DNA of 36,557 nt from Chloroflexota bacterium (GTDB lineage: Bacteria > Chloroflexota > Anaerolineae > Anaerolineales > VGOW01). Location of the stretch: the NCBI GenBank assembly GCA_016875735.1, contig VGOW01000039.1, forward strand, positions 1 to 36,557. Reading direction: 5' to 3'. Both the position numbers and the translations under genes were made by a program. The notes below the pieces were generated by a model that was not told the DNA's origin, did not search any database, and saw only the letters and a list, made by a program, of their open reading frames with translations. Shown piece by piece: positions 6,348 through 9,828 of this stretch. The first letter of the stretch is position 1; every line of letters starts with the position of its first letter.

Positions 6348-7919
6348 TTATAACGGTTTGCTCGTGGGCAGGGCGGGCATGGCCGGGCCGGGCAGGCCAA
6401 GCCGCGCGCTCAACGCCGCGCGCAGAGCCAGCCGATCATCCCACGGATACTCGATCCCGCCGAAGCACATGCTCTGCTCGTGCGCTTTGCCGCAGGCCAT
6501 CACCACATCGCCGGGGCGGGCCATGTTCACCGCAAACCGGATCGCCTCGCCGCGATCGGCGATGCGCCAAAATGTTCGGCCCTCCACACCGCCTTTGCTC
6601 TTCGCGCCCTCGGCGCTCTCGGCCATGATCGCCTCGAGCGATTCGGTGCGCGGGTCTTCGGCGGTGATGATCGCGCAATCGGCCCACTCCGCCGCCACCT
6701 CGCCCATCCACCGCCGCTTGGTCACATCGCGCAAACCTGCCGAGCCGAACACCACGATCACCCGGCCCTTCGACAACTGCCGCGCCGTTTCGAGCGCGCG
6801 CTTCAGCGCATTCGGCGTGTGAGCGAAATCGACGATGGCGATGAACTCCTGGCCGAGATCGAATCGCTCCATTCGACCGGGCACGCCTTTGAGCGACTCG
6901 ATCCCGCAGGCGACCGTCTCCGCGCTCAAGCCCAACCCTTTCAGCCCGACCGCCATCGCCGCGAGGCAGTTGGAGAGGTTGTAGGAGCCGAGGAGGGACG
7001 TTTGGAAAGGATGAAGGATGAAGGATGAAGGATGGATCTTGGCTGTGAAATGGGTGGAGTCGGGGTGGAACACAATGTCTGTCGCACGCACGTCTGCGCC
7101 TTCCTGCAAGCCATAGGAAACGCAGGGCACGCTGATCCGCGCGCGGAGATAATCGAACGAGTCGTCGTCGGCGTTGAGGACGGCCAGTTTGCTCAGGCCC
7201 GGTTTGGCCCACGCCGTCGCCAGCGACTCGAACAGCATGGCTTTGGCCGCGCGATAGTTTTCGAGCGAGCCGTGAAAGTCGAGATGCTCGTGGGTGATGT
7301 TGGTGACGACGGCAATATCGTATTCGCAGGCGGTCACACGGTGCTGGGCGAGTCCGTGAGAGGTCGTTTCGAGAACGCAGTGAGTCATCCCCGAGTCGGC
7401 CATTTGGGCGAGATAGCGTTGCACGTCGGGCGCGTCGGGAGTCGTCGTGTGCAGTCCGGTATCGAGAATCTGATCGCCAATGACGGCGTTGACGGTGCTG
7501 ATCAGCCCGGCTTTGAGTCCGGCGGCGAGCAGAATGCTGTGAATGAGATTGCTCGTGGTCGTTTTGCCGTCGGTGCCGGTCACGCCGATCATCACCATTT
7601 TGCGCGCGGGGAAATCGTGGAAGGCGGCGCACAGCCAAGCCAATGCTTCGGCGGCGTCGGGGACGCGGACGAAGAGGCCCTCACCCCCCGGCCCCCTCTC
7701 CCATTGGGGAGAGGGGGAGTCAAGCACAATGGCGACTGCGCCGCGCTCAAGGGCTTGCGGAATGAACGTGTGCCCATCCACCGTGCCGCCGCGCCGGGCG
7801 ACGAACAGCGCACCCGGAGTCACGCGGCGCGAGTCGTGCTCGATGGCGGTGATGTCGGGGTCGCCGGGCGTGCGATGGAGGATGGAAGGGAGGGCCGAGA
7901 GGAGTTGCGAGAGGCGCAC
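6348..7919 (-). CDS. murE: UDP-N-acetylmuramoyl-tripeptide synthetase (MurE)
   Basis: ATP-dependent Mur ligase adding the third amino acid to UDP-MurNAc-L-Ala-D-Glu in cytoplasmic peptidoglycan synthesis. Seen are the P-loop GVTGTDGKTTTSN, the motif LETTSHGLAQHRV, NITHEHLDFHGS and the C-terminal ligase domain with IVDFAHTPNALKRALE. The substrate motif reads EDPR (about residue 420) where meso-diaminopimelate enzymes usually have DNPR, so the added residue (mDAP, ornithine or lysine) is uncertain. The start was set at GTG 7917-7919 (VRLSQLLSALPS); a frame open to 7973 would run through a palindrome and is unlikely. Two insertions look repeat-derived: about residues 68-81 (palindrome at 7678-7720) and about 296-305 (GATGAAGG repeats at 7007-7035). 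The reading frame remains intact. Confidence 0.95.
   Translation of the reverse strand: MRLSQLLSALPSILHRTPGDPDITAIEHDSRRVTPGALFVARRGGTVDGHTFIPQALERGAVAIVLDSPSPQWERGPGGEGLFVRVPDAAEALAWLCAAFHDFPARKMVMIGVTGTDGKTTTSNLIHSILLAAGLKAGLISTVNAVIGDQILDTGLHTTTPDAPDVQRYLAQMADSGMTHCVLETTSHGLAQHRVTACEYDIAVVTNITHEHLDFHGSLENYRAAKAMLFESLATAWAKPGLSKLAVLNADDDSFDYLRARISVPCVSYGLQEGADVRATDIVFHPDSTHFTAKIHPSSFILHPFQTSLLGSYNLSNCLAAMAVGLKGLGLSAETVACGIESLKGVPGRMERFDLGQEFIAIVDFAHTPNALKRALETARQLSKGRVIVVFGSAGLRDVTKRRWMGEVAAEWADCAIITAEDPRTESLEAIMAESAEGAKSKGGVEGRTFWRIADRGEAIRFAVNMARPGDVVMACGKAHEQSMCFGGIEYPWDDRLALRAALSARLGLPGPAMPALPTSKPL
7007..7035. repeat. Heptad GATGAAG repeat inside murE
   Basis: The plus strand carries four successive units of aggatga inside murE, encoding IHPSSFILHPF on the minus strand. 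The frame is preserved, and the encoded segment sits just before the family motif LLGSYNLSN. Confidence 0.8.
7678..7720. repeat. CCCTCACCCC/CCCCTCTCCC palindromic element in frame in murE
   Basis: CCCCCTCTCCC (7692-7702) and GGGAGAGGGGG (7707-7717) form an 11-bp inverted repeat, preceded by ccctcacccccc. It encodes SPSPQWERGPGGEG in the N-terminal domain of MurE without shifting the frame. Confidence 0.85.
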
Positions 7920-7948
7920 GATGGAGGGGATTATAACCCCCACCCCGG

Positions 7949-7984
7949 CCCTCCCCCATTTGCAAAACCACAAATGGGGGAGGG
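7949..7984. repeat. 14-bp perfect inverted repeat upstream of murE
   Basis: CCCTCCCCCATTTG and CAAATGGGGGAGGG are separated by 8 bases, about 30 bases upstream of the murE start. The region 7985-8175 continues with further GC-rich hairpins and contains no gene. Confidence 0.85.
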
Positions 7985-8072
7985 AGTCATTTCTCCCCTC
8001 TCCAAAAGTGTTCTTCTTTTGGGGACCCTCTTGCAGAGGGCAGGTGGGTTGGGGGTGGGGTCAAAACCGCTG

Positions 8073-8117
8073 GGGGGCGAAGCCCCCGTGCGCAGCCCCC
8101 CGTAGCCCCGAAGGGGC
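8073..8117. repeat. GC-rich hairpins downstream of the J-domain/FGE-like gene
   Basis: Two perfect hairpins, GGGGGC-GAA-GCCCCC (8073-8087) and GCCCC-GAA-GGGGC (8105-8117), lie 60-105 bases beyond the stop codon of the gene at 8176-9135. They may act in termination. Hairpins downstream of variable regions are also a feature of diversity-generating retroelement targets, but these lie farther away than in the model system. Confidence 0.6.
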
Positions 8118-8175
8118 GGAGTGGGCAGACCCCCCGATTCAGGATCCCAGCATTCCAGAATCCAGAAGATCAGAA

Positions 8176-9135
8176 TCAGGGTGAGAGCGAACAGCGGAAG
8201 CCGATGATGTAGTCCCCGTCCGACGGCACGACCCAGTAGCGGGGCGCGGTACGGACGAGGTTCACACTGCTGCTCCACGAGCCGCCCCGCAGCGCGTAAG
8301 TGCTCGCATCGTATTTGCTCATTGTCCACTCCCACACATTTCCGGCCATGTCGGCGCAGCCATTAGGGCTATCACCCTTCGGGCTATACTTGCCTACCGG
8401 AGTCGTTCCGCGTTCGTTTTGATTGAAATTGCAGAGCGTCTTGTCCGGCGATTGATTTCCCCACGGATACAGGCGGCCATCCGTGCCGCGCGCTGCCTTC
8501 TCCCATTCCTCTTCGGCCGGCAGCCGCAAGCCCGCCCATTGGCAATAGGCTTGCGCGTCATTCCAACTCACCAGCACGACAGGATGGTTTGATTTGCCCG
8601 CCGGATGGCGGCGAGTCTTCCGATCCCAGTTGTAGGGCTTCGCCCAATCCGCATCATCAAAAGGAGCAGCATATTCGGGGTTCGCGTCAATGAAAACTTG
8701 ATACTGCGCTTGAGTCACCGGGTAACGCATGATTTGGAAGGCGGGTAATATACGCTTCTCTTTCTCGTCGCCGTACAGAAACTCGCCCGCAGGGATCGTT
8801 ACCCACGGGCCTAGCCGCACGATGCGCTCTTCTTCTGTCCATCGCCCACTTCTCGCTTCTCGTTGCGGCTCGGCTCGTTCCGCGCTGCGGGTACCGCGGT
8901 CGGCTTGGGTCCGCGCGCCGCGCCGCTCCATATCGTACAGGGCGCGTTCGGTTACGTCGCCCAGAATTGCGTAGGCCTCGTTGATTTCCTTGATACGTTC
9001 TTCTGCCTTTGCTTTGTGAGAAGGGCTGGGGAACTTATCGGGATGCCAGGCGTGAGCCAAGAAGCGGTACTGCTCTTTGATTGCCTCCGCCGTAGCATCA
9101 ACGGGCACTTCCAGAATCTCGTAGTAGTCCTTCAC
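8176..9135 (-). CDS. J-domain protein fused to an FGE/SUMF1-like (C-type lectin fold) domain
   Basis: The 319-residue protein starts with a J domain (residues 1-70: YYEILEV at the start and HPD at 31-33), which in this family stimulates Hsp70 ATPase. A charged linker follows (about 71-105), then a formylglycine-generating-enzyme-like domain (about 108-319). Landmarks are FQIMRYPVTQAQYQVFI, LVSWNDAQAYCQWAGLRLPA, WEKAARG, YPWGN, DMAGNVWEW and RGGSW near the C-terminus. True FGEs have two catalytic cysteines after RGGSW; here that segment reads SSSVNLVRTAPRYW, so formylglycine synthesis is unlikely and a binding role is more plausible. The start GTG 9133-9135 is preceded by GGGAGG. The last 30 codons resemble a retroelement-diversified region (8194-8283). 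Confidence 0.92.
   Translation of the reverse strand: MKDYYEILEVPVDATAEAIKEQYRFLAHAWHPDKFPSPSHKAKAEERIKEINEAYAILGDVTERALYDMERRGARTQADRGTRSAERAEPQREARSGRWTEEERIVRLGPWVTIPAGEFLYGDEKEKRILPAFQIMRYPVTQAQYQVFIDANPEYAAPFDDADWAKPYNWDRKTRRHPAGKSNHPVVLVSWNDAQAYCQWAGLRLPAEEEWEKAARGTDGRLYPWGNQSPDKTLCNFNQNERGTTPVGKYSPKGDSPNGCADMAGNVWEWTMSKYDASTYALRGGSWSSSVNLVRTAPRYWVVPSDGDYIIGFRCSLSP
8194..8283 (-). other. Candidate hypervariable (DGR-type variable) region
   Basis: This is the 3' end of the FGE-like domain, from RGGSW to GFR. At positions where relatives commonly carry Asn, the codons are AGC, AGC, CTC, GTC, CCC, TAC, GTC, GAC, GAC, TAC and ATC. All differ from AAC only at A positions, as adenine-specific mutagenic retrohoming would produce. 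GC-rich codon bias could also favour C endings. No template repeat or reverse transcriptase is present in this window. Confidence 0.4.
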
Positions 9136-9185: not shown

Positions 9186-9779
9186 CTATTTTGGAAAGAG
9201 GCTGGCAACCTTCACATTGAAACCGGGCAGGAGCGGCGAGGTGAGATCATCGTCGGCATACAGGGTGACGGCCAATCGAAGAACCGCATTCTCGCGCCGG
9301 TAAACTTCCAAGCGCTTCTCGCGCCAATCGGCTATCCAATACTCGCGCACGCCGCGCTGGGAATACAGCCGCAGTTTGGCTTCGCGGTCGCGCCGCTCGT
9401 TGCGCGCGCCGGGCGAGAGCACTTCGGCCACGAGGTCGGGCGATTCATGAAGCTTCCCGTCGTCGCCCAAAACATGCGGGAGACGCTCGCCGCTCACCCA
9501 CACCACATCCGGCGCAACTGCGTTTTCATCGTCAAACAACACACCGGGCGCCGATCGCACCTGCCCATTTCCCCCCTGGCGAATCCACAGATTCAATTCG
9601 AGGGCGATGGCGTCGGAAGTCCCTTGATGATGCCAATGCGGCTGAGTGGTCACGAGCAATTCTCCCTCGATGATCTCGTATCGTTTCCCCTCTTCGACGG
9701 GATAATGCTCAAGGTCGCGGGTTGTCCAACGATCCGGCGATCTCTCGACCTCAGATTTTGTTTGCGCGGAAACAGTCAT
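9186..9779 (-). CDS. Uma2-family (DUF820) putative PD-(D/E)xK endonuclease
   Basis: Small Uma2-like protein of about 197 residues with the typical opening WTTRDLEHYPVEEGKRYEII and EGELLVTTQPHWHHQ. The predicted nuclease core follows: APDVVWVSGERLP, then SPDLVAEVLSPGARNERRDR, EAKLRLYSQRGVREYWIADW, giving the D, E and K of a PD-(D/E)xK fold. These proteins are common in Cyanobacteria and Chloroflexota, often in many copies. Cellular targets are largely unknown. ATG 9779 was chosen to give the normal N-terminus. An alternative ATG at 9815 lies inside the hairpin at 9799-9828 and follows TATAAT (9828-9833). The gene sits downstream of the atp genes but is probably separate from them. Confidence 0.9.
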   Translation of the reverse strand: MTVSAQTKSEVERSPDRWTTRDLEHYPVEEGKRYEIIEGELLVTTQPHWHHQGTSDAIALELNLWIRQGGNGQVRSAPGVLFDDENAVAPDVVWVSGERLPHVLGDDGKLHESPDLVAEVLSPGARNERRDREAKLRLYSQRGVREYWIADWREKRLEVYRRENAVLRLAVTLYADDDLTSPLLPGFNVKVASLFPK

Positions 9780-9798
9780 ACGCACCTGCCTTAAATAG

Positions 9799-9828
9799 TG
9801 AGCGCGGCGTTCCATCTCGCCGCGCTCA
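9799..9828 (-). terminator. Hairpin at the end of the atp gene block
   Basis: TGAGCGCGGCG and CGCCGCGCTCA form an 11-bp perfect stem with an 8-base loop, 10 bases after the stop codon of the b-delta gene. Only a weak T run (TATTT) follows, so termination efficiency is uncertain. Confidence 0.55.

Follow-up and report, generated by a model that had tools for sequence, protein, structure and literature searches.

The window analysed here, a stretch of 36,557 nt, is contig C39 of a draft Chloroflexota genome (G000; 4.15 Mb, 150 contigs, 97.8% complete), and holds a gene that joins a J-domain to an FGE-sulfatase-like domain. The question raised by this locus is whether the 3' end of the gene is the variable region (VR) of a diversity-generating retroelement (DGR). 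A first-pass annotation had suggested a current or former DGR target whose reverse transcriptase (RT) lies elsewhere, with both the RT and the template repeat (TR) outside the window, and indeed neither was found within it. We arrive at the same reading, and give a probability of roughly 0.87 to the gene being a remote DGR target, away from its RT and template, either current or orphaned. It draws on the third bases of the VR codons, on TR-verified FGE homologues, on a module downstream of the gene, on an RT and two diversified FGE genes elsewhere in the genome, and on a hairpin core with two sites in the genome. The nearest sequence relatives found are mostly Anaerolineae/Anaerolineales MAGs, with which the host probably belongs.

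The gene and its domains are placed as follows.

8176..9135, minus strand: candidate target gene, J-domain plus FGE-sulfatase-like domain (C-type-lectin fold), 319 aa; from ORF and translation, Pfam and Foldseek
8932..9129, minus strand: J-domain (DnaJ), Pfam PF00226, residues 8-73, 1.7e-19
8191..8805, minus strand: FGE-sulfatase-like domain, Pfam PF03781, residues 116-320, 2e-48

The structure model of the protein (mean pLDDT 72) confirmed the FGE fold, with Foldseek matches to FGE structures at E about 1e-15; a DGR variable protein was absent among the structure matches listed, and the model seems to add little on mechanism. The gene has its VR-like sequence at the 3' end of a C-type-lectin/FGE fold, as DGR targets do. 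In FGE enzymes the catalytic Cys pair sits in the segment from RGGSW to GFR, and the translation has no Cys in this segment; hence the protein appears unlikely to be an enzyme. By analogy with FGE sensors from earlier work (PMC10907252, PMC7159879), the protein is probably a variable ligand sensor. The neighbouring genes encode a Mur ligase (6348-7973), a Uma2 protein (9186-9815) and ATP-synthase components, with no phage-like gene among them, and no relative was found in IMG/VR, which is not the picture given by a phage-borne DGR.

Homologues in related genomes provided the reference for a genuine target. Eight TR/VR pairs have no mismatch outside A positions (G026:C273, G010:C153, G010:C218, L118, L119, L120 and two targets at L122), and a ninth (G054:C9) has 2; all these TR-verified relatives have a tail of 32 codons. 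The N-termini found in TR-verified relatives or in other FGE homologues (L114, L117, G037) are NACHT, KAP NTPase, TIR and protein kinase domains. Three FGE targets of G037, about 50% identical to the window protein, have identical third bases except at two codons that template A can explain, and were therefore written from one template, which was not present in the DNA examined. Two of these three targets, which lie on L093 and L094, are kinase-FGE genes, and the template that is assembled at G037:C332 differs.

The 3' end of the window gene can be divided as follows.

8194..8289, minus strand: VR-like 3' end, RGGSW...GFR, 32 codons; third-base rule 10/10, length equal to that of TR-verified VRs
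8203-8274, minus strand: variable core, codons 6-29 of the VR-like end
8183..8202, minus strand: 20-nt stretch free of adenine at the VR 3' end, in a position like that of an IMH (initiation of mutagenic homing) sequence and possibly acting as one, by sequence reading

On the minus strand the tail reads RGGSWSSSVNLVRTAPRYWVVPSDGDYIIGFR-CSLSP*. The annotation had recognised the tail from RGGSW to GFR and ended it at 8283; the tail is there, but its 32 codons run to 8289, 6 nt further. The codons it had listed (AGC, CTC, GTC, CCC, TAC, GAC and ATC) are all present. The sites at which a template would carry Asn (codons 6, 7, 8, 11, 18, 20, 24, 26, 27 and 28) were set from 12 independent TRs of related DGRs in other genomes, which avoids circularity. 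In the window VR the third base of all ten codons is C or T, including each of the six at which a synonym existed, and the same rule is seen in the TR-verified VRs of relatives. The 3' end thereby carries the codon signature that an AAC/AAT-rich template would leave after rewriting specific to adenine, and the codons at its variable sites can be derived from such a template by changes at A only. By itself the pattern is moderate evidence, suggestive and not decisive.

The annotation had named codon bias in a GC-rich genome as the main alternative, in which case the gene would be an ordinary FGE domain that never belonged to a DGR. Local GC3 is 0.78, and Asp, Tyr and Asn have only C- or T-ending codons. 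With the amino acids of the window fixed and local codon usage applied, bias alone yields 10/10 with p about 0.02 (0.019); among 7289 sliding windows taken from local coding sequence, 36 (0.5%) attain this score. Against this explanation, Val is encoded by GTC and three serines by AGY codons where GTG (0.65) and TCG (0.42) would be expected, and most FGE tails that lack DGR marks have lower scores, 3-9, and miss at sites where a synonym was available. As bias also leaves the downstream module described below unexplained, we hold it to be very improbable. The fraction of A retained at the window template sites (8/20) was dropped as a DGR mark, being non-significant for one sequence (p = 0.21). 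It is when the codon pattern is taken together with the downstream site and the remaining genome that the signal goes beyond chance.

The genome has further J-domain proteins. A second J-domain plus FGE gene (C38, L109 2176-3480) was considered as a target and rejected, as it scores 7/10 by the third-base rule and the module is absent. A third J-domain protein (L205, on C48), 51% identical to the J-domain and linker of the window protein, has a charged repeat linker, a transmembrane-like stretch and pentapeptide-like repeats.

Downstream of the gene the following elements were found.

8140..8179, minus strand: CTG tract, six CTG, 6-8 nt apart, directly after the VR (chain of 6)
8126..8135, minus strand: GGGGGGTCTG, first half of a conserved hairpin module; occurs only in the window and at C8:865 in the 89.6 kb of own-genome DNA examined
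8068..8087, minus strand: GGGGGCTTCGCCCCCCAGCG hairpin, second half of the module

Only about 0.08% of background 85-nt windows hold at least six chained CTG. In DGR targets of the same order a CTG tract follows the stop codon and a GC hairpin comes next, and the DNA downstream of the window gene carries this pair: in summary form, the CTG tract and then GGGGGGTCTG...GGGGGC/GCCCCCC hairpin. The GC hairpin past the VR is present and interrupted, since the window reads AATCGGGGGGTCTG at 8126-8139, then 38 extra bases, then GGGGGCTTCGCCCCCCAGCG; these 38 nt between the two halves were not seen in relatives. The module GGGGGGTYTGGGGGG..CCCCCCAG is present in C8, L117, L178, L247 and L102, where the hairpin is laid out as GGGGGGTYTGGGGGGC-loop-GCCCCCCAG or nearly so, and variants of the module occur in L035, L082 and L107. 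The hairpin core GGGGGCGAAGCCCCC has exactly two sites in the 4.15-Mb genome, C39:8073 and C8:875, and both follow VR-type FGE genes.

A CTG tract follows 14 of 22 FGE tails that obey the third-base rule (DGR-type) as against 1 of 19 other FGE tails; it should be noted that these 41 tails are related, and the p-value of 1e-4 is a guide. TTCTG-spaced tracts gave 21 pattern matches in G000 against 1 for a reversed control, and many genomes have such tracts; the tract was consequently rejected as a DGR-specific mark and retained as a correlate. A heptamer-like family of intergenic TTCTG repeats in G000 extends past the DGR sites. The combination of a CTG tract with a G6-TYTG-G6-C loop G-C6-AG hairpin is found after DGR-type FGE genes at L035, L082, L102, L107, L117, L178, L247 and L002. 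We suggest that the CTG tract with the G6-TYTG-G6 hairpin is possibly a mark of DGR target sites in this order. A further intergenic repeat, CTCCCCCATTTG...CAAATGGGGGAG, with CTCCCC/GGGGAG arms, is alike after the window FGE gene (7930-8050) and after the FGE gene of C1 (L014 1360-1460).

The annotation had proposed to look through the complete genome for an RT of the DGR clade and for a near-repeat of the VR; in the draft assembly this gave one truncated RT and no TR. The RVT_1 search returned a single match, a DGR-clade RT at C8:954-1541, directly behind the FGE gene with which the contig terminates. Compared with intact DGR-type RTs that adjoin TRs in relatives, its identity is 58-67%; it ends just before motif 4 (GLPIGNLTSQ), so that motifs 4 and 5 and the catalytic YVDD box are missing; the truncation lies within the contig, away from its end. 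With an intact RT from the same genus as query, no further RT pieces were found in the assembly. At this locus (FGE gene and RT, L002 3-1541) the RT frame ends in CTCCCGATAAC, which resembles the end of the FGE gene, CTCCCGCTAAC, as if a deletion had fused the RT to a template end.

A second, similar FGE gene is situated at the end of C1 (L014). The differences between the FGE genes of C8 and C1 fall on codon positions 1/2/3 as 12/8/2 in the VR and 11/9/41 elsewhere (Fisher p = 2.5e-6), and both third-base differences in the VR are accounted for by template A. Judged by this pattern, the two genes are targets rewritten from one common template, and this template is absent from the assembly. 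The third bases of the window VR differ from those of the C8 and C1 VRs at many codons, hence the C8/C1 template was not the writer of the window VR. The C8 RT with its unseen template was accordingly rejected as that writer, and the C8 RT, which is truncated and whose own targets have other third bases, is not supported as the enzyme serving the window gene.

Several searches were made for a TR of the window VR itself. BLAST found none in the assembly; the matches on C135 and C106 were due to chance and fall in a response regulator/histidine kinase locus and a cytochrome-like gene. A pattern allowing the VR base or A at each position matched, with at most 3 mismatches, only the VR itself in its own genome. 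Template pattern searches gave no template in GTDB contigs or IMG/VR, and in 400 genomes of the order returned only the window itself and poly-A or otherwise low-complexity A-rich matches. The template of the C8 and C1 targets is missing too, however, and the assembly is for that reason no fair test. As no TR was obtained for the window gene, a current target cannot be separated from a former one.

How the VR came to its present state can be explained in more than one way. We lean somewhat towards a frozen relic, that is, a gene diversified in an ancestor or donor which then lost the template and has followed ordinary evolution since. The truncated RT, a template not found anywhere searched and a module interrupted by 38 nt all argue for such orphaning, and targets outliving lost DGR cores are among the cases described for Treponema denticola (PMC4891356). 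On the other hand, drift would blur the third-base rule over time, and the rule still holds at 10/10, which argues against long drift. An element that is active now, with an intact RT and template in the cell or in other strains, is a possibility to which we give less credence. Such sequences could have dropped out of the draft, since contigs break where VR/TR copies are near-identical; the draft reaches 97.8% completeness in 150 contigs, the FGE copies of C8 and C1 both run to contig ends, and the C8/C1 template is likewise unassembled, so that templates are being lost, whether during assembly or by the genome itself. Dore et al. 2024 (PMC10907252) describe loci with a broken RT/TR in the reference for which long reads show structural variants that are intact. 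The sole RT found is nevertheless truncated inside its contig and not at the end, and the hairpin module of the window is interrupted. Gene conversion or recombination could instead have brought the variable 3' end from another FGE target, the gene having no template of its own; several FGE paralogues exist in the genome, but the window VR has no above-chance match at any further locus of the assembly, and we regard this origin as very improbable.

For a remote target written by a DGR, the course of events would be the following. An error-prone DGR RT would copy template RNA to cDNA, placing random bases at template A, and this product would replace 8194-8289 with the assistance of the downstream hairpin. 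The resulting protein may expose a lectin fold with a variable surface, to which a changing ligand binds, and the J-domain may hand the bound protein to Hsp70. The window template would be separate from that of C8 and C1 and would by now be lost or unassembled, the gene then possibly being an orphaned, frozen target. Further, we speculate that the domain by which a J-domain co-chaperone binds clients or antigens is diversified by a DGR, so that the cell has evolving recognition modules that pass chosen proteins to Hsp70, and that target choice in trans across Anaerolineales-type bacteria is set by the CTG tract and the G6-TYTG-G6 hairpin; taken as a whole, we consider this idea unlikely.

Remote targets, orphan targets and FGE sensors are already known. 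In bacteria that form filaments or aggregates, DGR targets with an FGE/C-type-lectin fold (Dore et al. 2024, PMC10907252; Kaur et al. 2020, PMC7159879) share with the window gene the C-terminal FGE domain and the 3' VR. Their descriptions likewise include signalling or effector domains at the N-terminus, genomes with several targets, loci that are incomplete and targets that are remote; PMC10907252 reports both activity in trans and broken reference loci with intact population variants. The window gene differs from these systems by its N-terminal J-domain and in that neither an RT nor a TR lies close to it. Fusion of a J-domain to an FGE domain of DGR type is not mentioned in the main texts of the DGR papers searched, and in the searched text of Kaur et al. 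2020 (PMC7159879) DnaJ appears only for a different GAP1-N2 system.

The site itself may be compared with that of Bordetella phage BPP-1, where efficient recognition of the target is reported to depend on hairpins downstream of the VR (Guo et al. 2011, PMC3240598). Both have a GC-rich hairpin past the VR, adenine-only rewriting and an A-free 3' end. The hairpin of the present order, G6-TYTG-G6-C/G-C6-AG, lies about 60-105 nt away after a CTG tract, compared with 4-34 nt in BPP-1 (PMC3240598); its loops are variable, whereas those of BPP-1 are 4-nt GRNA, and in the window 38 nt separate its two halves. No description of an order-wide G6-TYTG-G6 hairpin module with a CTG tract was found in the sections of the DGR literature searched. 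If shared as it appears, the module renders recognition in trans by the DGRs of this order directly testable.

The DGRs of Treponema denticola (PMC4891356) also have targets far from the core and targets in strains that lack it, but there the templates are known, while none was found for the window gene. Within the same genome, the C8 and C1 FGE genes resemble the window gene in VR layout, CTG tract and, for C8, the hairpin core, and differ from it in the third bases of the VR, which point to another template, and in that no J-domain was seen in their assembled parts. Large DGR surveys of metagenome contigs are described as overlooking targets distant from the RT (PMC8144416); the present locus suggests that such targets are detectable by the third-base rule together with the downstream site module. 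The pairing of a J-domain with a diversified lectin fold would further suggest that DGR sensors can feed a chaperone system, in addition to outputs through NACHT, TIR and kinase domains.
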